NCBI RefSeq assembly: GCF_003224335.1 | Contig: NZ_QKLF01000006.1 | Location: forward strand, 1 to 64,000 | Direction of reading: 5' to 3' | Length of the DNA stretch: 64,000 nt | Source of the DNA: Curtobacterium sp. MCJR17_055 | GTDB lineage: Bacteria; Actinomycetota; Actinomycetes; Actinomycetales; Microbacteriaceae | Part shown: one piece after another, positions 9,993 through 48,240 of the stretch | How the letters are laid out: each line of letters starts with the position of its first letter | Numbering within the stretch: the stretch's first letter is position 1 | The notes under the pieces: generated by a model | Databases searched by the model: none | What the model was told of the DNA's origin: nothing | Seen by the model: only the letters and a program-made list of their open reading frames with translations | Made by a program: the position numbers and the translations under genes

Positions 9993-10067
9993 CACGGCGT
10001 ACCGTCGGCGGCACCGTGCTCACCCGCGTCGACGGGTGGCCGGACACCGACGACCGGGAGGACCCCC

Positions 10068-10667
10068 ATGAGCTCGCGCACCACCACCGCAGCCGTCACC
10101 GCGACGACCCTGCTCCGCATCGCACTCGGAGCGGTGCTCGTCTCGCACGGCGCCCAGAAGCTCTTCGGTGCGTTCGGCGGCGGCGGCATCGACGGCACCG
10201 CCCAGGGCATGCACGCGATGGGCTTCCGGCCCGGCCGCCGCAACGCCGTCCTGGCCGGCATCGGCGAGGCCGGGTCCGGTGCCGCCCTCGCGCTCGGCCT
10301 CGCCACGCCGATCGCCGGCGCCGGTGCCGCCACGACCATGGGGGTGGCCTCCAGCGTGCACACGCCGAACGGCTTCTTCAACGCGGACGGCGGCCTGGAG
10401 CTGCCGGCGTTCCTCGGCTTCTCGGCGGCGATGTTCGCCCTCGGCGGCCCGGGCCCGGTGTCGCTCGACCACGCGACCCGGCACGCCCTCGACCGGCCGT
10501 GGCTCCGCGCCGTCGCCCTGGCCGCGGTGCCGGTCGCGATCGCGGTGCAGGTCGTGCAGCGTCGGAAGGCCCTCGCGGCGGACGCCGCGGACGCGGCGGA
10601 CGCGCCGGCCCCGACGGAGGCGGCGGCCCCGGCGGCGTCCGGCGACGGTGCGTCCTCGGCGGAGTAG
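10068..10667 (+). CDS. DoxX family membrane protein
   Basis: 199 residues from an ATG behind GGGAGGA. About four membrane segments; the N-terminal RIALGAVLVSHGAQKLFG is the DoxX family signature, followed by a Gly-rich loop and a Pro/Ala-rich cytosolic tail. In mycobacteria DoxX takes part in a membrane oxidoreductase complex, but family roles vary and none can be assigned here. It is inserted between the nudix gene and xerD, which are usually adjacent. Confidence 0.85.
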   Translation: MSSRTTTAAVTATTLLRIALGAVLVSHGAQKLFGAFGGGGIDGTAQGMHAMGFRPGRRNAVLAGIGEAGSGAALALGLATPIAGAGAATTMGVASSVHTPNGFFNADGGLELPAFLGFSAAMFALGGPGPVSLDHATRHALDRPWLRAVALAAVPVAIAVQVVQRRKALAADAADAADAPAPTEAAAPAASGDGASSAE

Positions 10668-35339: not shown

Positions 35340-35444
35340 TGGCCGGCTGGAGGTGATCGCGAGCAGCGCCGCAAGCGCAGCGAGGGGCGGACCGGCGCCG
35401 TGCCTCCAGAGAGACGATGTCGATCGACGACTGCTCGGCTCAGC

Positions 35445-35870
35445 TCACGCCGGTGGCGTCGTACCCGCGCCCTCGGTGTCGTCTGCGCCCGCAGGACCGG
35501 TACCGGCCTGGTCGAGATTCTCGTGCGGATCGCCCATGTCGCCGGTCGCTCTGCCGATGGGGGACAGTCCGTAGTGCTTTCGGACAGCGTTCGCTTCTCC
35601 GGCGGACAAGGTGTTTCCAGCTCCGGGGGAGGGCGCACCCTTCATCGCACTCTTCGCGTACCCAACGTGGAGGTCCGAGCCGTCGAACGTGGCGTCCTCG
35701 ACCGGGACAAGCACGGTGTGACCCCCGAGCAGTCCTGTCGAGACGCTGACGAACGCAGCGCTGCCGTCCTCGTCGGAGGGGAACACCTGCGCGACCTTGC
35801 CGGCCAATACGCCGTCGCGGTCTCTGACGGTCGCGTTCTCGACCTCGTGGATCTTGCTCTTGGTGATCAT
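35445..35870 (-). CDS. PRC-barrel domain protein
   Basis: 141 residues from the ATG at 35870 (an in-frame TTG at 35882 adds four). Residues about 5-80 read as a PRC-barrel: ENATVRDRDGVLAGKVAQVF, GLLGGHTVLVPVEDATF, DLHVGYAKSAMKGAPS. The C-terminus is Gly/Pro/Thr-rich. Such stand-alone PRC-barrel proteins are common in actinobacteria and often called stress-related; actual role unknown. Confidence 0.78.
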   Translation of the reverse strand: MITKSKIHEVENATVRDRDGVLAGKVAQVFPSDEDGSAAFVSVSTGLLGGHTVLVPVEDATFDGSDLHVGYAKSAMKGAPSPGAGNTLSAGEANAVRKHYGLSPIGRATGDMGDPHENLDQAGTGPAGADDTEGAGTTPPA

Positions 35871-35992
35871 TGGCGTAGTCAACGCCCCACGCCTGACCCG
35901 CTTGTGTCAGTGATCGTGAGAAGGGCCCGAGTGCTTCACGACATGACCGTGGAGTCGTTGCTGAAGCGCAGCGGTCTGGAAGGAGCTCTCGC

Positions 35993-36695: not shown

Positions 36696-36992
36696 TCAAT
36701 GATGCGTCTCATCGTGCCCGTTCGGTTGAGCCGCTGACGCTTTGGCGACGGCAGCGGCTGCTCGCTCGATCGAGACTCCGGGATGGTCTTCGCGGTACCT
36801 CCGGACGTCCGTGGGATCGACCTCTGTGCCGACGGGAAACTCGATCGGCTCGCCGGAGCTCCAGCGCGTCGTCGCCATCCAGAGTGTGGCTGCTCCGATC
36901 CAGCCGGTCAGGAGCGGGCTCAGGTACAGGCACCCGTAGGCCGTGGCTGCAGCGCCGATGACGACGGCAGGGATACGGATCCACCTCTTCAT
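36696..36992 (-). CDS. Small membrane protein, unknown
   Basis: 98 residues from the ATG at 36992. Two close hydrophobic segments (IRIPAVVIGAAATAYGCLYL and LLTGWIGAATLWMA), then a soluble tail with EFPVGTEVDPTDVRRYREDH, ending in HDETHH. Not recognised. It is divergent from the first SDP toxin gene and shares its 92-nt promoter region, so a link to that operon (regulation or immunity) is possible but unsupported. Confidence 0.65.
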   Translation of the reverse strand: MKRWIRIPAVVIGAAATAYGCLYLSPLLTGWIGAATLWMATTRWSSGEPIEFPVGTEVDPTDVRRYREDHPGVSIERAAAAVAKASAAQPNGHDETHH

Positions 36993-37084: not shown

Positions 37085-37678
37085 ATGTTGACGATGAAGA
37101 CGGCCGCGCTCCTCACTGGCGGGGCGCTGATCATGACGAGCGGGGTGATCACGTCAGCGGGTGCGGCGTCAGCCGAGCAGATCACGGCCGCGGGTGCGAC
37201 CGTGGCGCTCCCGGCCAGGTACAAGTACTCCGATAATCAAGTGCTGACCGCCGTGTTGTTCGGGGCCGGTCCTGTTGCCTCGGCGCTCGGCGTTCACATT
37301 GGCGACGAGACGCCGCTGCCGGACAACTTCGACGAGCTTGCCACGGAGGTGGTTCGTGTATTCCGATCCGACCGCGCTGAGGTGACCGACACCGCGCTTG
37401 CTGCGTTCCGGTCCGGGGATCCGGTCCGCGTCCACGAGGCCGTCAAGACCCTCCAGCGCACGTTCCAGGAGACGTACGTCAAGGGAACGCCGCGCGTCGA
37501 GAACGGCGCGCTATGCGCGACGGTGAATCTCGTGCTGGCCGGTAACCTCGCCGTCGCGATCAACGTTGGTGTCGCGGTGACGGTCGCCTTCGTGACGTGG
37601 GTGGTCACTCGTCAGGTCGAAAACGATGCTGATGCGCAGTTGATCTCGGCGCGTCTTGCGGATCTCGGTCGCGAATGA
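37085..37678 (+). CDS. sdpC: SdpC-like antimicrobial toxin precursor
   Basis: 197 residues. Signal peptide about 1-30 (cleavage after AASA), then YKYSDNQVLTAVLFGAGPVA, the SdpC-type motif with a hydrophobic VLxxxLFxxG core; a helical charged middle; then Cys144 leads into a hydrophobic segment (141-175, LVLAGNLAVAINVGVAVTVA) and a charged tail. In Bacillus subtilis SdpC the secreted toxin SDP is cut from the corresponding hydrophobic part; this protein has one Cys, not the pair that forms the SDP disulfide. The ATGA overlap with the SdpA-like gene and its SdpB and SdpI neighbours support the call. Confidence 0.85.
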   Translation: MLTMKTAALLTGGALIMTSGVITSAGAASAEQITAAGATVALPARYKYSDNQVLTAVLFGAGPVASALGVHIGDETPLPDNFDELATEVVRVFRSDRAEVTDTALAAFRSGDPVRVHEAVKTLQRTFQETYVKGTPRVENGALCATVNLVLAGNLAVAINVGVAVTVAFVTWVVTRQVENDADAQLISARLADLGRE

Positions 37679-38196
37679 AGCACGGGAAGAGCGCGGCTGC
37701 GGTGTTCGGGCTGTTGGTGACCGCGGTCGCGCTCTCCTCGCTTCCGTCTGCACGGTACTTCCCGGCCGGGCTGACACGAGCTGTTAAGGCAGTCGCAGTG
37801 TCATCCCCGCAGGGCTGGGCGTTCTTCACGAAGGACCCTACGGAGGCAGCTGATCTGGCCTACCTCAAACGTGGCGGGAGGTGGGTGCCGGTTGTCGACG
37901 CGCTCCCCACCGCCGATGCAATGGGTTTGTCGAGGCGAGCCCGCGCGATTGATGCTGAAGTAGCTGCCCTTTCGCAAGCAGCCGGGGACGCCTCGTCGTC
38001 CTGCGCCGCGAATGCTGATGTGCAGCGGTGCGCGCTTGCGGCGCCACGAGTGCAACATCAGTTCGAGCTCGCTGCCCCGCCGGTTTGTGAACCAGTCCTC
38101 ATCCGGAAGAGGGAGCCGATCCCCTTCGCGTACGGGACGCGCGTGAGTGCGATGCCATCCAAGGTGGTGATCGTCGATGCGCAATGCCCTGCATGA
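37675..38196 (+). CDS. sdpA: SdpA-like SDP maturation protein
   Basis: 173 residues. N-terminal membrane anchor (VFGLLVTAVALSSLPSARYF), then the extracytoplasmic part with SPQGWAFFTKDP and RGGRWVPV, the core of the SdpA family, and four Cys in the C-terminal half (SSCAAN, RCALA, VCEPV, QCPA) that may form disulfides. In B. subtilis, SdpA and SdpB are both needed to turn pro-SdpC into active SDP. Start overlaps the toxin stop by 4 nt; end overlaps SdpB by 20 nt. Confidence 0.85.
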   Translation: MKHGKSAAAVFGLLVTAVALSSLPSARYFPAGLTRAVKAVAVSSPQGWAFFTKDPTEAADLAYLKRGGRWVPVVDALPTADAMGLSRRARAIDAEVAALSQAAGDASSSCAANADVQRCALAAPRVQHQFELAAPPVCEPVLIRKREPIPFAYGTRVSAMPSKVVIVDAQCPA

Positions 38197-39094
38197 CCTG
38201 ACCGCTGGTCTTCGACGCGCGAACCCGATCGGCGTTTCGCGGTCGGTGCTGGCTGTCGGGAGTCTTTCGACCCTGTTGCTGAGCGATGAGCGGTCGTTGT
38301 TCCTCACGTTCCTGCCGAACGCGGCTGCATCACGTTGCGTCGGTGCCGGACGGTTCGGGCTGTTCTGCGTCTCCGAGGTGACTACCAACGGCCTGAAGCT
38401 GGCGACGATCGCGGCAGTGTTAGTGCTTCTCGGGGTCATCAGCGGCTTCGCCCCCAGACTCCTTGCCGTCCCGCACTTCTACGTGGCGTGGAGCGTGTCG
38501 CAGAACATCGTGCTCGTCGAGGGTGGAGATCAGGTCAATGCGGCCATGACGATGCTTCTGATCCCGTGGCTACTGAGTGCGCCGAGGGGAAGTGCGTACT
38601 CCCCGCAGACGCCCTACTTCGACTTGCTTCGCGAGAACGCATTCGCGTACGGGGCCGCTGAGTTGATCAGGTTGCAGCTGTCGATCGTCTACGCGATCGC
38701 TGCCATTGCGAAGTTCGCTGTGCCGCAATGGTCCGACGGGACAGCGTTCTGGTACTGGCTCCAGATGCCCACGTTCGGGCTCCCACCAGACATGTTCGCT
38801 GCGTTCGCTCCGGTTCTCGAACATCCGCTCATCATGGTGACGGCCACGTACGCGGTCCTCGTGTTCGAGCTCAGCCTCGTCGGAGCGATCTGGACGCGCG
38901 GGCGGTGGTCACGGCTCGTGCTCGGCGCCGGCATCGCCTTCCACGCCGGCATCGCCATCGTTTTGGGGCTCTGGTCCTTCGGCATCACCATGGCCGGAGC
39001 GCTCCTCATCTGCCGCGCGTTGCAGAACGCTGCGGTGATGAGCATCAACGTTCAACGGCCAGGCGCGCGCTCCGTCGTTCTGGGAGAGGGGTAG
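38177..39094 (+). CDS. sdpB: SdpB-like membrane protein
   Basis: 305 residues, six or seven membrane segments, HTTM-like (vitamin-K-carboxylase-related membrane fold). Core motif IAKFAVPQWSDGTAFWYWLQ followed by MPTFG is nearly the same as in the second locus (46896-47801). Required with SdpA for SDP maturation in B. subtilis. No signs of decay. Confidence 0.87.
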   Translation: MRNALHDLTAGLRRANPIGVSRSVLAVGSLSTLLLSDERSLFLTFLPNAAASRCVGAGRFGLFCVSEVTTNGLKLATIAAVLVLLGVISGFAPRLLAVPHFYVAWSVSQNIVLVEGGDQVNAAMTMLLIPWLLSAPRGSAYSPQTPYFDLLRENAFAYGAAELIRLQLSIVYAIAAIAKFAVPQWSDGTAFWYWLQMPTFGLPPDMFAAFAPVLEHPLIMVTATYAVLVFELSLVGAIWTRGRWSRLVLGAGIAFHAGIAIVLGLWSFGITMAGALLICRALQNAAVMSINVQRPGARSVVLGEG

Positions 39095-39097
39095 AAG

Positions 39098-39433
39098 GTG
39101 ATCTTCGTCGAAATGGTTGCGGCGGTGGTGACCGTGGTCTTCGTCGTGTTGCCCGCAGTCGGCGTCATCGGCCGGAACTCATTCGTCGGTGTTCGTACGC
39201 GAGCGACGATGCGAGATGCGGCAGCCTGGCGCCGAGGACACCAGGCTGCCGTGCTCCCGACCAGCGTTGCTGCCGGTGGCGTGATCGTTCTCGGGATGAG
39301 CGCAGCGGTGACGGGGCGCCCGAACGACGTGTCCGCGGTGATCCTCTGCGCTGCTGTGCTGCTTGCCGGGGGGTTGTGGAGCGTCGCCGCTGCGCAACGA
39401 GCAGTCCGGAAGGCACCTGATGCTTCGCGTTGA
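39098..39433 (+). CDS. sdpI: SdpI-type immunity protein
   Basis: 111 residues from a GTG 4 nt after the SdpB stop. Three membrane segments; the loop after the first holds GVRTRATMRDAAAWRRGHQ, the SdpI/YfhL signature (G-[IV]-R-T...AW...H). In B. subtilis, SdpI protects the producer from SDP. Only the conserved C-terminal three-helix half of SdpI is present. Overlaps the protease gene by 14 nt. Confidence 0.85.
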   Translation: MIFVEMVAAVVTVVFVVLPAVGVIGRNSFVGVRTRATMRDAAAWRRGHQAAVLPTSVAAGGVIVLGMSAAVTGRPNDVSAVILCAAVLLAGGLWSVAAAQRAVRKAPDASR

Positions 39434-40358
39434 TGGCCCTGTCGTTCCCGAGCCAGTGGCAGCGGAGGTCCGCTGGAAGCCGATCCTGATCTTCACGGTC
39501 CTGGCCTGGGGCTTCGGATGGTTCGCCAGCCTGCCGCTGTGGATCGATCCGGTGGGCTTGGCGTCGGCGCACGCGCTGTGGGTCCTGCCGATCATGATGT
39601 TCACACCCTGCACTGCAGCAGCGATCGTTGTACTGCTGCAGCAACGCGTTCCAGTGCGGCAGGCTGTCCGGCAGCTCGGAATCGTCCCGCTCCGACCGCT
39701 CGGAAAGCTCCTTCGCTTCTCACTGGGCGGCATCGTCGTGCTTCCACTTGTCGTCATCGCAGGCATCGCAGTCGCCGCGCTCCTGCATCTCGTCCGCCTC
39801 GACCTCCTGACGTTCAGCGGATTTGCCGCGCTACTTCCCGAGGAAGCGAGGGATCTTCTGCCGATAGGCGCACTCGTCCTCGTGCAGGTCATCTCGATCC
39901 CGATCGCCGCCCCTCTGAACGGGGTACTCGCATTCGGAGAGGAAGTCGGGTGGCGTGGTTTTCTGCTCCCTGCCCTACGGCCTGTCGGCGACTGGCCCGC
40001 TGTGCTGATCACCGGCATCGTGTGGGGCGTCTGGCACAGCCCGATCATCTTGCTGGGCTACAACTTCGATCGTCCAGACCTGTCCGGGGTCGTCCTGATG
40101 ATCGTCGGAGCCACCGCCGTTGGGACGTTCCTTGGCTGGCTCCGGATCTGGAGCGATTCCGTCTGGCCTGCCGTTTTCGGGCACGGCGCGTTCAACGCAG
40201 CCGGCGGTCTGGTGCTGCTGTTCTCATCTGCGAAACATCCGCCGGACCTCGCCCTGGCGGGCCCGCTCGGCGTTGGGACCTGGATCGCCGCGGCAGTTTT
40301 CGGGACGATCGTCGTCGCTTGCTCGCGTCGATTCAGTAACCGCTCGGACGGCGATTAG
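39420..40358 (+). CDS. CPBP family intramembrane protease
   Basis: 312 residues from the ATG at 39420 behind GGAAGG. About eight membrane segments. CPBP/Abi motifs: EEVGWRGFLLPAL (near residue 173), GIVWGVWHSP (near 205) and FGHGAFNA (near 254), all catalytic Glu, His and Asn present. CPBP proteases occur in many bacteriocin loci as immunity or processing factors. Its overlap with the immunity gene puts it in this operon; whether it cleaves the toxin is inferred. Confidence 0.88.
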   Translation: MLRVDGPVVPEPVAAEVRWKPILIFTVLAWGFGWFASLPLWIDPVGLASAHALWVLPIMMFTPCTAAAIVVLLQQRVPVRQAVRQLGIVPLRPLGKLLRFSLGGIVVLPLVVIAGIAVAALLHLVRLDLLTFSGFAALLPEEARDLLPIGALVLVQVISIPIAAPLNGVLAFGEEVGWRGFLLPALRPVGDWPAVLITGIVWGVWHSPIILLGYNFDRPDLSGVVLMIVGATAVGTFLGWLRIWSDSVWPAVFGHGAFNAAGGLVLLFSSAKHPPDLALAGPLGVGTWIAAAVFGTIVVACSRRFSNRSDGD

Positions 40359-40514: not shown

Positions 40515-41564
40515 CTAGCTTCCCGACCCGACGGCGGTGCCGACGAGCTCGTTGCGGACGATGTCCGCTCCCGCTGCCAGCGCCCCGAGCTTGTCGAGCG
40601 CGGCACCCCGCGCCAGCGGCGCCATCCCGCAGTTGGTGCTCGGGATGAGCTTGTCGGCGTCGACGAACTCGAGCGCGCGACGGAGCACCTCCGCGACCTC
40701 CTCGGGCGTCTCTACGGTCTCGGTCGCGACGTCGATGGCGCCAAGCATGACCTTCTTCCCGCGGATGAGTTCGACGAGTTCGAGCGGCACGTGGGAGTGG
40801 ATGCACTCGAGCGAGACGATGTCGATCGACGACTGCTGCAGGAGCGGGAACGACTGCTCGTACTGCCGCCATTCCGCCCCGAGCGTCTCCTTCCACTTGT
40901 TGTTCGCCTCGATGCCGTAGCCGTAACAGATGTGCACGGCGGTCTCGGCGTGCAGGCCCTCGGCAGCGCGCTCGAGTGCGGCGACGCCCCAGTCCTGCAC
41001 CTCGTCGTGGAAGACGGTGAAGGCGGGCTCGTCGAACTGGATGACGTCGACGCCGGCGTCCTGCAGCTCCCGAGCCTCCTGGTTGAGGATCGTGGCGAAC
41101 TCCCACGCCAGCTTCTCGCGGCTCTTGTAGTGCTGGTCGGAGAGCGTGTCGATCATCGTCATCGGACCGGGGAGCGCCCACTTGATCGGGCGGTCGGTCT
41201 GGGCCCGGAGGAACTTCGCGTCGTCGATGAACACCGGGGCGGCACGGCTCACGGCGCCGACGACCGTGGGGACCGCGGCGTCGTACCGGTCCCGGATGCG
41301 GACGGTCTCCTTGCGCTCCTGGTCGATGCCGTCGAGGTGCTCGATGAACGTCGTCACGAAGTGCTGCCGGGTCTGCTCACCGTCGCTGACGATGTCGATG
41401 CCGCGGCGCTCCTGCTCGTGGACGGCGGACCGGAGTGCGTCCTGCTTGCCCTCGGTCAGCGCTGCGCCCTCCAACTGCCAGGGGGACCACAGCCGCTCGG
41501 GCTCGGCGAGCCAGGACGGTTTCGGCAGGCTGCCGACGATCGCGGTGGGCAGGAGGGTGGTCAT
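40515..41564 (-). CDS. mesD: Folate-independent methionine synthase MesD
   Basis: 349 residues, about the size of the MetE C-terminal catalytic domain. Zinc ligands are visible: H211 and C213 in AVHICYGYG, E253 in SLECIHSH and C312 in STNCGMAP. The lack of a MetE N-terminal domain and the neighbouring DUF1852 gene identify the MesD type of core methionine synthase, which methylates homocysteine with an unresolved methyl donor and needs oxygen and MesX. 67 nt downstream of mesX, same strand. Confidence 0.88.
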   Translation of the reverse strand: MTTLLPTAIVGSLPKPSWLAEPERLWSPWQLEGAALTEGKQDALRSAVHEQERRGIDIVSDGEQTRQHFVTTFIEHLDGIDQERKETVRIRDRYDAAVPTVVGAVSRAAPVFIDDAKFLRAQTDRPIKWALPGPMTMIDTLSDQHYKSREKLAWEFATILNQEARELQDAGVDVIQFDEPAFTVFHDEVQDWGVAALERAAEGLHAETAVHICYGYGIEANNKWKETLGAEWRQYEQSFPLLQQSSIDIVSLECIHSHVPLELVELIRGKKVMLGAIDVATETVETPEEVAEVLRRALEFVDADKLIPSTNCGMAPLARGAALDKLGALAAGADIVRNELVGTAVGSGS

Positions 41565-45630: not shown

Positions 45631-46338
45631 ATGAAACTGCACTCCGGGCTTGCTCATGTCGGCGCTGCTGCTGTCGTCATCGGTGCGCTCAGCGCGGGCG
45701 TGACGGCGCCCGAGGCGCCCTCTGCTCACGCCACTTCCACTCTCGCTCCGTCTCGTGCAACAGCCTGGTCGATGACGGAGGTCCTCGAGGGGCTGCTCTT
45801 CATGCAGGGCAGCTTCGGCGAAGAGCTGCTTCGCACTGGGGCGCTCGGGCCGCTCTCGGCTGAGCAGTCCTCTGCCCTCGAGAAGGCACTGGCCGAGCCC
45901 AGAGCCGCCGCGATCGCTCGTTCTGTCGTGTCGGAGTTGGAGCAACGGGTGCCTGAACAGACGGCAGCCCTGATGAAGGCTTTACAAGCCAGCGATCCCA
46001 TCGCAGTTCAGACGGCCATGTCCGAGCTCGGAGCCGAACTCCCGAGCATGCCCACCTTGCAGGGTCTGACGGGTCATGCTCCGGCCGCCTCGTCGACGTA
46101 CGTACCCGGCGAGATCGGGACGGATTGCGGCGTGCTGGTCTGGGTGGTCGCTGGCGCCGTGCTCGTGGTCACCGTCGCGGCGGTGGGGGTCGGCGTCCTG
46201 GCGCTCGCGTCCACTGTGGCAGTGGGCTCGACCAAGGTCGCCGGCGAGAACGCGATCCGACGAGCCACAGGTGCGACCGGCCAGGCTCTCGAAGACCTGC
46301 TGACCGCCAAGGCGATCGACATCTTCCGTGCTCGATGA
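45631..46338 (+). CDS. sdpC: SdpC-like toxin precursor, second copy
   Basis: 235 residues. Signal peptide about 1-34 (cleavage near SAHA), then TEVLEGLLFMQGSFGEELL, equivalent to the VLxxxLFxxG motif in the first locus; the middle shares DP(V/I)xVxxA with it; Cys166 precedes a hydrophobic segment 167-196 and a charged tail follows. Single cysteine as in the first copy. Sequence identity between the two precursors is otherwise low. SdpA- and SdpB-like genes follow with 11- and 8-nt overlaps. Confidence 0.83.
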   Translation: MKLHSGLAHVGAAAVVIGALSAGVTAPEAPSAHATSTLAPSRATAWSMTEVLEGLLFMQGSFGEELLRTGALGPLSAEQSSALEKALAEPRAAAIARSVVSELEQRVPEQTAALMKALQASDPIAVQTAMSELGAELPSMPTLQGLTGHAPAASSTYVPGEIGTDCGVLVWVVAGAVLVVTVAAVGVGVLALASTVAVGSTKVAGENAIRRATGATGQALEDLLTAKAIDIFRAR

Positions 46339-46903
46339 TCGAGTCCGTCGCTGGAGAGCATCTCGGACCGTGACGGCCTGTGGGCTCCTCGTCGCGGTCC
46401 TGTTCGCGAGCTACCTGCTGGCAGGTCGGCTCGGCGGAACGGCCGCGGTGCAGATGCCCGCGCAGGGTGACGTCGGAGCTCTGTTCTCCCGGATCGCTCC
46501 GCAAGGTTGGGCCTTCTTCACCAAGCCCGCTCGCTCAGCGACCCCGACCGCGTACACCCATGACGGCGGACGATGGGTCCAGATAGCGGGTCTGTCGAAC
46601 GCGCAGCTCCGCTTCCTCGGCGGATTGAGCCGGGAGGGGCGTCGGCAGGGCGTGGAGATGGCGTCCGTCCTCACCGGGATCCCGAGGAAAGCATGGCGGG
46701 AGTGCGATGGCAGGGATCTGCCGCAGTGCGTCAGCGGTCAGCGACGGCAGTCCGTCCTGAATCCGCTTCCCCATCCCACGCTCTGCGGCAACGTCGTTCT
46801 GGCAGCGACGAAGCCGACGCCCTGGGAGTGGCGGTACATCTCCAACGAAGGCACATACGTCAGCGAGGCGATCGCGCTCGAGGTGCGTTGCCGACATGCC
46901 TGA
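46328..46903 (+). CDS. sdpA: SdpA-like SDP maturation protein, second copy
   Basis: 191 residues from a GTG overlapping the toxin stop. N-terminal membrane anchor (ACGLLVAVLFASYLLAGRLG), then APQGWAFFTKPA and DGGRWVQI, matching the SPQGWAFFTK and GGRWV blocks of the first SdpA; Cys in RECDG, QCVSG, LCGNV and VRCRHA. Extracytoplasmic, membrane-anchored. Confidence 0.84.
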   Translation: MLDDRVRRWRASRTVTACGLLVAVLFASYLLAGRLGGTAAVQMPAQGDVGALFSRIAPQGWAFFTKPARSATPTAYTHDGGRWVQIAGLSNAQLRFLGGLSREGRRQGVEMASVLTGIPRKAWRECDGRDLPQCVSGQRRQSVLNPLPHPTLCGNVVLAATKPTPWEWRYISNEGTYVSEAIALEVRCRHA

Positions 46904-47801
46904 TCGCAGAAGGTGGACGATCCCCTACCCGTGGGGAGCGGGGCTCGGAGTTGCCAGAAGTGTGCTCTACGCCGGGATGGCGCTGACTCTGCTCATGAAC
47001 CCCGCATGGATCCTGTTCACGGTCAGCACTGCTCAGCCGGAAGTGCCGGTCTGTGACTCGTACAACGGCTGGGCGTTGTTCTGCTTGTTCGATCAACACC
47101 TCGACGTCGCTCGCGTTCTTGCAGGTTCGTGCCTTCTGGTCTTCGCCAGTGGCGTTCTCCCGTGGCTCACGGCCGTACCGGCGGCCTACTTGATCGTGAG
47201 CGCGAGTGTGACGATGACGTTGGGCGACGGGGGCGACCAGCTCTACGGGATCCTCGGCCTTCTGCTGCTTCCGCTCAGCTGCACGGACTGGCGCCGGACC
47301 TCGTGGTCGAGTAGAACATCGGATCGATGTGCTGCAGGACGCGGCAGCCTGGCGTTCGTGGGATGGGCGCTCGTTCGATCGCAGATCTTCGTCGTCTACC
47401 TCGAGGCATCCGTCGGAAAGCTCGCGGTACCGGAGTGGGCGAACGGGACCGCGCTCTACTACTGGCTCCGCAGTCCGACCTTCGGTCCGGGGCCGCTGCT
47501 CGCTCCGGTGATCCAGGCGGCGACCATTGCGCCGCTCATCGCTGGTCCCGCGACCTTCCTGGTCATCGCACTCGAGTTCGTCCTCGCCATGGGACCGCTC
47601 TTCGCTCCCAGGGTCCGGCGCTGTCTCCTCGTGCTCGGGCTGATCCTCCACGGCGCCATCGTGCTCGTCATGGGCATCACCTCGTTCTCGCTGGTGATGG
47701 CGGCTGCGCTCCTCCTGCACCTGGTCCCTACGAACGCCTCCTACGGAGACATCTTCCCGAGAAAGCGAGACTGGTTTGTCGCTCGACAGCACGCAGATTG
47801 A
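46896..47801 (+). CDS. sdpB: SdpB-like membrane protein, second copy
   Basis: 301 residues with about six membrane segments. SVGKLAVPEWANGTALYYWL and SPTFG match the AKFAVPQWSDGTA...YWL...PTFG core of the first SdpB, in the same position. HTTM-like fold. Overlaps SdpA by 8 nt and the next gene by 26 nt. Confidence 0.86.
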   Translation: MPDRRRWTIPYPWGAGLGVARSVLYAGMALTLLMNPAWILFTVSTAQPEVPVCDSYNGWALFCLFDQHLDVARVLAGSCLLVFASGVLPWLTAVPAAYLIVSASVTMTLGDGGDQLYGILGLLLLPLSCTDWRRTSWSSRTSDRCAAGRGSLAFVGWALVRSQIFVVYLEASVGKLAVPEWANGTALYYWLRSPTFGPGPLLAPVIQAATIAPLIAGPATFLVIALEFVLAMGPLFAPRVRRCLLVLGLILHGAIVLVMGITSFSLVMAAALLLHLVPTNASYGDIFPRKRDWFVARQHAD

Positions 47802-48240
47802 GTTACGCGATCGCATCGCAGCACCATTCGCAGTCCGAGTGCTCGGGACCGCGGTCGGCGCTCTCGCTGGCGGGATCATCATCACCAACGCAGTCACCGG
47901 CTTCGACGCCGAGACTTTCGTCGCCACGCTGGTCGGTTTCCTGGCGGGCTTGTCGGGGGTGGTCGCGCGGATCACCATCCTCGTGACCGGCGGAACGGTC
48001 CGCATCTCGTTCTTCCCGTTCCTCAGGGTCGCGTTCGAACTCGCGGAGATACGGCGAGCGACCGTGGTGACGATCGATCCTGTACGCCTCGGTGGTGTGG
48101 GAATCCGACGTTCTCAAGGGGCCCGCGTGCTCGCGATGTCCGCGGGCACGGGAGTTCGGCTGGAAACGACCCGCGGCGCGATCATCGTGCAGAGCACGAT
48201 CGCGGAGCGCGTCGCTTCGGCACTGACGCCTGCTGGGTGA
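47776..48240 (+). CDS. Putative immunity protein of SDP-type locus 2
   Basis: 154 residues from a TTG inside the SdpB end; no better start is seen. Two membrane segments (VRVLGTAVGALAGGIIITNA and FVATLVGFLAGLSGVVARITI), then a beta-rich soluble part (GTVRISFFPFLRVAFELAEI; PH-like in appearance). It lacks the SdpI G-[IV]-R-T...AW...H motif. Its overlap with SdpB and its place where SdpI lies in locus 1 suggest immunity; no known family is recognised. Confidence 0.65.
   Translation: MSLDSTQIELRDRIAAPFAVRVLGTAVGALAGGIIITNAVTGFDAETFVATLVGFLAGLSGVVARITILVTGGTVRISFFPFLRVAFELAEIRRATVVTIDPVRLGGVGIRRSQGARVLAMSAGTGVRLETTRGAIIVQSTIAERVASALTPAG

Follow-up and report, generated by a model that had tools for sequence, protein, structure and literature searches.

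A CPBP intramembrane protease gene linked to SDP-type toxin operons of Curtobacterium: a probable accessory immunity factor

In Bacillus subtilis, SdpC, SdpA and SdpB make and export SDP, a hydrophobic peptide that inserts into membranes and whose mature form contains two cysteines joined in a disulfide. The immunity protein SdpI is encoded in a separate sdpRI operon and also signals through SdpR, and full-length SdpI proteins carry DUF1648 as their N-terminal domain. We know of no CPBP protease among the B. subtilis SDP genes.

A paralogue of SDP, the YIT toxin of B. subtilis (yitPOM/yitQ), resembles the system described here in having a dedicated immunity membrane protein, YitQ, that is unrelated to SdpI; in PMC6818787, YitQ is characterised no further than as a membrane protein, the term 'CPBP' does not occur in the text, and loci or strains with only sdpRI homologues exist. 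Abi/CPBP proteins of lactic acid bacteria have been reported as bacteriocin self-immunity proteins (Kjos et al. 2010, as cited in the available parts of PMC4467070 and PMC9298176). The CAAX protease SilX of Streptococcus anginosus likewise adjoins a bacteriocin locus, but differs in its role: as far as the accessible sections of PMC9298176 describe it, SilX acts in signalling and is required for bacteriocin activity, apparently via a signal peptide, its deletion does not sensitise the producer and no immunity role was found, while SagE is proposed there to cleave the leader of its toxin. Among the matches listed by a search of the open-licence literature, no title or beginning of an abstract mentioned a CPBP/CAAX protease in an SDP operon, and neither 'CAAX' nor 'SdpI' occurs in the available portion of a report on actinobacterial SDP in Brevibacterium (PMC5719810).

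The stretch of DNA analysed here, referred to as the window, comprises 64,000 nucleotides of Curtobacterium sp. MCJR17_055 (contig NZ_QKLF01000006.1, positions 1 to 64,000) and contains two SDP-type loci (Table 1; G and L numbers denote genomes and loci, G000 being the genome of the window). Locus 1 shares sdpA, sdpB, an sdpC-like gene and an SdpI-family gene with B. subtilis sdpABC-sdpIR and differs from it in the gene order, which is sdpC-A-B-I-CPBP with CPBP last. The NCBIfam matches of its sdpC and sdpB genes lie below the curated cut-offs, that of sdpA to PF17418 above. The last 105 amino acids of SdpC contain a single Cys at both window loci, so that a disulfide of the B. subtilis type cannot form within them; as the two cysteines are a feature of one member, this is not taken as grounds to exclude the loci from the SDP system, and the SdpC tails vary widely between loci. 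No regulator gene was seen in the SDP operon of the window.

Table 1. Coordinates of the SDP-type loci of the window and of the genes bordering locus 1.
Feature	Position	Strand	Remarks
PRC-barrel gene	35445..35882	-	left border of the SDP site; PF05239 22.9 bits, cut-off 21.2
sdpC-like toxin precursor gene, locus 1	37085..37678	+	197 aa; C-terminal hydrophobic segment, one Cys ahead of it; TIGR04032 33.2 bits, E 4.5e-08, below curated cut-off 99.2
sdpA, locus 1	37675..38196	+	PF17418 58 bits, E 1.2e-15, over cut-off; TIGR04034 42.4, below 53.1
sdpB, locus 1	38177..39094	+	305 aa; TIGR04033 175.8 bits, just below cut-off 178.4
sdpI-family immunity gene, locus 1	39098..39433	+	GTG start, 111 aa; PF13630 40.7 bits, cut-off 28.2
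CPBP glutamic intramembrane protease gene (predicted)	39420..40358	+	312 aa, ATG start; PF02517 65.9 bits, cut-off 22.4
methionine-synthase-like gene (presumed metE)	40515..41564	-	convergent; delimits the SDP site on the right in relatives
sdpC-like gene, locus 2	45631..46338	+	TIGR04032 E 1.6e-10, below cut-off
sdpA, locus 2	46328..46903	+	PF17418 E 1.1e-30, over cut-off
sdpB, locus 2	46896..47801	+	TIGR04033 190.9 bits, over cut-off
X, candidate immunity gene of locus 2	47776..48240	+	154 aa, 2TM + PH-like, TTG start; 26-nt overlap with sdpB

The methionine-synthase-like gene, which we take to be metE, adjoins CPBP in G040, G044, G017, G057, G019 and PS02332 as well, and the PRC-barrel gene was found near the SDP site at the majority of the metE-site loci that were searched. 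A stretch of 32 nt of metE (40806-40837) is copied across the SDP site at 35404-35435 with 94% identity, and longer partial metE copies are present near the SDP site in G041, G055, G064, G017 and G019; these copies hint at recombination of the site through metE duplication. Divergent from sdpC there is a small membrane-like ORF (36696-36992, minus strand), and a similar ORF seems to remain in the toxin-less G044 (L069, about 10067-10459).

Judged from its sequence, the last gene of locus 1 encodes a CPBP intramembrane protease with intact catalytic residues. The three motifs of the family (EExxxR, F/WxxxH and HxxxN) are present in a multi-pass membrane protein, for which a hydropathy script counted eight segments, and read E174-E175-x3-R179, W202-x3-H206 and H255-x3-N259. 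These seven residues are invariant in all 11 aligned sequences, i.e. the window CPBP and ten relatives, which together with the Pfam match bears out the presence of all three catalytic motifs as claimed in a first-pass annotation of this DNA. Motif 2 has W in place of the textbook F and aligns to the W of MmRce1. When a profile of four CPBP sequences was compared with the PDB (E up to 10), one distinct sequence was found, namely MmRce1 (4cad, E 2.9e-08), whose EE..WR, WH and H...N residues line up with the profile. An AlphaFold model built with four sequences reached a modest pLDDT of 70.6, and its only matches of probability 1.00 were 4cad (best, E 1.9e-05) and SpdC (6u0o, E 1.2e-03). Likeness to these two proteins thus extends to the fold, and for MmRce1 also to the catalytic layout; both have other substrates, and the sequence match to MmRce1 amounts to only 36.5 bits. 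The dN/dS ratio of CPBP was 0.17-0.42 in 11 pairs (two of 13 planned pairs were left out, the G054 frame being missing) and 0.24 for G007-G055, both toxin-less at the metE site. PADLOC gave no match for CPBP or SdpI and one match at chance level for X.

The CPBP start codon lies inside sdpI, with GGAAGG a few bases 5' of it, and the resulting overlap, already noted in the first-pass annotation, measures 14 nt and is common to G000, G040, G057 and G019. This overlap speaks for one sdpI-CPBP transcript; scans for promoters and terminators revealed nothing above shuffled sequences. The earlier wording that the protease is fused into an SDP operon is appropriate for the operon and not for the protein: a literal SdpI-CPBP fusion was rejected, the two being separate ORFs.

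A search of 66 Curtobacterium genomes located sdpA in 21 of them, at 26 places. A CPBP gene lies within about 0.9 kb of 12 of the 26 SDP operons (its distance to C/A/B, taken between longest ORFs, does not exceed 835 bp, and the true gaps may be somewhat larger), namely in G000, G040, G052, G005, G027, G028, G012, G041, G029, G008, G031 and on the G047 plasmid, the G027 and G028 loci being near copies. The arrangements are C-A-B-I-CPBP (G000, G040), C-A-B-X-CPBP (G005, G052), C-C-A-B-DUF1648-CPBP (G041, G029, G008), divergent I..CPBP (G027, G028), CPBP divergent from C-A-B-I (G012) or from C-A-B-C-X (G031), and a convergent CPBP (G047 plasmid). Whole Curtobacterium genomes carry 2-12 CPBP genes, roughly one per 600 kb, from which simple arithmetic leads one to expect well under one chance neighbour in 26 loci. 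With 12 of 26 operons in about seven arrangements, the link between CPBP and SDP genes is, on gene content, not a matter of chance.

Gene families in the 26 loci were assigned by profiles built in this analysis. A first generic CPBP profile was discarded, as it took in non-CPBP ORFs, some of them antisense to metE, and the counts given here use a core-domain profile without iteration. Since this core profile missed a divergent CPBP of Tsukamurella (see below), PF02517 was rerun on the 13 genomes, other than that of the window, with CPBP-less SDP loci; no match was found near these loci, the nearest on the same contig being about 90 kb away. Five operons (L087, L088, L089, L078, L093) contain two sdpC genes with different hydrophobic tails, which suggests two toxins per locus.

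Both the operons with CPBP and those lacking it contain other immunity-type genes. The 14 CPBP-less operons have SdpI (6) or the X protein described below (8); in the 12 others CPBP is accompanied by SdpI (5), by X (3) or by a DUF1648 protein (4). One of these companions is clear in 25 of the 26 loci and weak in the 26th, so CPBP would be an add-on to immunity-type genes. On the G047 plasmid DUF1648 is assigned only weakly (tblastn E 6e-6, HMM E 1e-8), and the assignment in G041, the sole one of the four put to Pfam, reached 29.5 bits (cut-off 28.7). The idea that CPBP replaces SdpI was rejected, as CPBP is never clearly the sole immunity candidate in the 26 loci.

The main rival to an immunity function, which we regard as unlikely, is that CPBP matures the toxin, a C-terminal or intramembrane cut freeing SDP from pro-SdpC in addition to the action of signal peptidase and SdpA/B. 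CPBP adjoins sdpCAB in the same direction in the window, G040, G005, G052, G041, G029 and G008, and the CAAX proteases SagE and SilX are reported, in the part of PMC9298176 available to us, to process bacteriocins or signals. However, CPBP is divergent from sdpCAB in G012, G031 and G027/G028 and convergent on the G047 plasmid, and among the operons that lack it is that of G058, whose SdpC and SdpB are 75% and 80% identical to those of the CPBP-bearing G012. For window locus 2, without CPBP, and G005, with CPBP, the respective identities are 40% and 47%. On a tree of SdpB, the presence of CPBP needs four changes (4-5 in bootstrap trees; the starred branches alone force 3) as compared to 9.0 on average for shuffled labels, so that CPBP presence is also clustered; toxin type and immunity type were compared only by this label count. 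As CPBP is optional and lost between similar toxins, a protease essential for maturation is unlikely unless another cellular CPBP substitutes, and with at least two CPBP genes in all 66 Curtobacterium genomes one of them could act in trans.

Furthermore, the sequences of toxin-less relatives suggest that CPBP can outlive the toxin genes in some loci, which again speaks against a role in maturation. In G017, what is left of sdpB is codons 270-305, closely followed by sdpI and CPBP, both open (CPBP 84% identical, with all motifs), and there is no sdpA match anywhere in this genome. In G064 contig 12 (L095:7566-7970), whose CPBP belongs to a sister clade, a deletion has joined sdpC codons 1-61 in frame with the latter half of a DUF1648 gene, and an open CPBP follows. 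The other two of the four toxin-stump loci have a broken CPBP: G044 contains a similar sdpB stump, an sdpI with an internal deletion and a CPBP with a stop, and the decayed locus on G064 contig 43 retains an open X next to broken CPBP and sdpB genes. In G057 and G019, sdpI is open and CPBP frameshifted, and no toxin genes or stumps were found at these sites. The sister CPBP clade occupies the same metE site in G007, G054, G055 and G034 with no toxin genes or stumps beside CPBP, and SDP genes may never have been present there; in G054, G055 and G034 CPBP is open and the genome contains no sdpA match. Both G007 and G064 possess SDP genes as an operon at another place in the genome, and their toxin-less CPBP copies are therefore not in toxin-free cells. 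The first-pass annotation had regarded a protease without SDP genes in close relatives as evidence against its proposal. Such cases do occur, in G017 and in G054, G055 and G034 of the sister clade, and they count against toxin processing, not against immunity.

Locus 2 of the window had been described as having no such protease. This is correct for CPBP, as none lies in the gene cluster (45631-47801) and the CPBP of locus 1 ends 5.3 kb upstream, and no SdpI-family gene was found for locus 2 either; it does not extend to immunity genes in general, since X is another candidate. Members of the X family follow sdpB in several phyla (Curtobacterium, Calidithermus, a Cryomorphaceae MAG and Riemerella), and it is this position that makes X a candidate immunity family. 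The X proteins scanned gave no Pfam or NCBIfam match over cut-off. In the AlphaFold 2 model (pLDDT 76.1, ten sequences) two long helices are combined with a set of beta strands; comparison of this fold with the PDB yielded no match at E <= 0.001 (best EROS, E 1.6e-03), and PH or PTB domains account for many of the weak matches. As the X profile was built by iteration and also picks up DUF1648-PH proteins, its E-values are optimistic. Outside the window, at 261881-262324 of contig C9 of the same genome (L110) and close to the contig end, there is a third sdpB, which is partial and overlaps an X-like ORF.

Beyond the genus, the core profile detected a CPBP gene at one of 12 SDP-type loci in a sample of the family (sdpB E below 1e-40). 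An sdpB search gave 17 named loci, three of which (L144, L147, L159; L144 is Curtobacterium) have a CPBP gene within 1.7 kb of C/A/B, and CPBP is also present in two of seven plasmid regions examined, out of 11 matches. A phylum-wide sample contained SDP genes in four of 396 genomes at E <= 1e-25, that of the window included, which is too rare to count. In PS02332 (Microbacteriaceae, L159), an SdpI-CPBP pair lies 1.6 kb from a C-A-B-X operon; its CPBP is 76% identical, and its sdpI is internally deleted and interrupted by a stop close to the end. G323 has C-A-B-X-CPBP and Microbispora bryophytorum C-A-B..CPBP, and on plasmid pTpau01 of Tsukamurella a divergent CPBP (Pfam 41.2 bits) lies at a distance of 1.3 kb from sdpC. 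In the genomes compared, the pairing of CPBP with SdpI-like proteins is recurrent, and the link to SDP is strong in Curtobacterium and scattered elsewhere.

The subfamily to which the window CPBP belongs, as defined by a profile, occurs in 109 of 398 Microbacteriaceae genomes. Its 29 best-scoring loci outside the window, which include one from Curtobacterium (G034), contain a single case within an SDP operon, that of G323. Directly upstream of CPBP and on the same strand there is a DUF1648 protein gene in nine of these loci (L185, L186, L190, L192, L193, L194, L197, L201, L203) and X in one (L183); a recognised SdpI-like or X neighbour is absent in 18. DUF1648 is over the Pfam cut-off in seven of the nine, below it in L203 (23.3 vs 28.7) and recognised in L192 only by a profile built in this analysis. 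Neighbour calling left the CPBP frame uncalled in L182, L187 (G323), L192 and L194, of which L182 was counted as partnerless and the others by other searches. In six of the nine partners an N-terminal DUF1648 is combined with a C-terminal PH region resembling that of X (FGGWG.R or similar). The ten DUF1648/X-CPBP loci have no SDP genes in their 1.5-kb flanks; for G282 (L183) and G121 (L186) this holds over 13 kb around CPBP, and both are outside the 77 of 398 genomes with a match to the SdpB model. No SdpI, X or DUF1648 match was found within 1.5 kb of any of the remaining six CPBP genes in the genome of the window, nor over 13 to 17 kb at the eight loci of a toxin-less third clade of the genus (G030, G025, G026, G048, G051, G058, G062, G011). 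An SdpI-type membrane protein is, by gene neighbourhood, the commonest recognisable partner of the CPBP subfamily, with or without a toxin, and the job of CPBP may be wider than SDP. The nine DUF1648 loci and L213 were seen as DUF1648(-PH or -DUF5808)-CPBP pairs with no SDP genes in view, and such pairs of Microbacteriaceae possibly constitute peptide-resistance operons.

In both CPBP operons checked (L192, L213) a GntR gene lies ahead of the DUF1648 gene, and SdpI of B. subtilis signals through SdpR, as mentioned above. Both observations would fit a different role, to which we assign still less weight than to toxin maturation, in which CPBP cleaves SdpI, the DUF1648 or PH protein or another signalling protein or regulator once the toxin has been sensed, within a response to envelope stress; the operon of the window, however, contains no visible regulator gene, and no substrate or cut site is visible. 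It is quite improbable that CPBP is a passenger, i.e. a chromosomal protease of other function beside which SDP genes happened to insert at a hot spot of recombination, for although Microbacteriaceae commonly carry the subfamily in the absence of SDP and the sister-clade CPBP occurs at the metE-PRC site both with and without SDP genes, the variety of arrangements, the four changes on the SdpB tree, the linked cases in PS02332, G323, Microbispora and Tsukamurella and the shared 14-nt overlap all speak against it.

Overall, we consider CPBP to be an accessory SDP immunity factor that acts with an SdpI-type partner, probably by cleaving the membrane-inserted SDP peptide, and we assign this reading a probability of roughly 0.6. 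It was chosen mainly because an SdpI-type protein is the commonest recognisable partner of the subfamily. Of the two roles suggested in the first-pass annotation, toxin processing or a second layer of immunity, the latter has gained support from the SdpI-type companions and from the retention of CPBP in two of the four stump loci, while the former has lost ground. We infer that the protein protects, that catalysis is needed for this and that SDP is the substrate. SdpC, SdpA and SdpB would make and export a hydrophobic peptide inserting into membranes, as in B. subtilis; SdpI, or X or a DUF1648 protein in other loci, would be the primary immunity protein, and CPBP would cut or clear the peptide in the membrane of the producer itself, perhaps once the SdpI-type partner has captured it. 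The protein would in this respect resemble the known Abi/CPBP immunity systems, in which, as described in the available parts of the sources cited above, a CPBP gene inside a peptide-bacteriocin locus protects the producer; a CPBP gene in a bacteriocin locus is also found here, and the difference lies in the SDP-type toxin with SdpA/B and in the SdpI, X or DUF1648 protein that accompanies the protease. The immunity reading is weakened by the broken CPBP genes of G057, G019, G044 and G064 contig 43, by the frequency of the subfamily without SDP (one of 29 best loci in an SDP operon, 18 partnerless), by the thin link outside the genus (one of 12 loci) and by the lack of sensitisation in the SilX deletion, as given in the available part of PMC9298176.

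More tentatively, and with odds that we place against it, SDP immunity could be a two-part membrane module in which an SdpI-type capture protein (SdpI, DUF1648 or the 2TM-PH protein X) presents the inserted peptide to a dedicated CPBP that cuts it. Such a module might descend from a peptide-resistance operon, GntR-DUF1648/PH-CPBP, on the chromosome of Microbacteriaceae, with DUF1648 and the X-like PH region as halves of one protein, and SDP operons might have repeatedly recruited it whole or in split pieces.

A protease that travels with SdpI-type proteins and outlives the toxin in places suggests protection by intramembrane cleavage of the peptide. X and the DUF1648-CPBP operons are unnamed candidate resistance genes, which may shield many soil and plant bacteria from membrane-inserting peptides.
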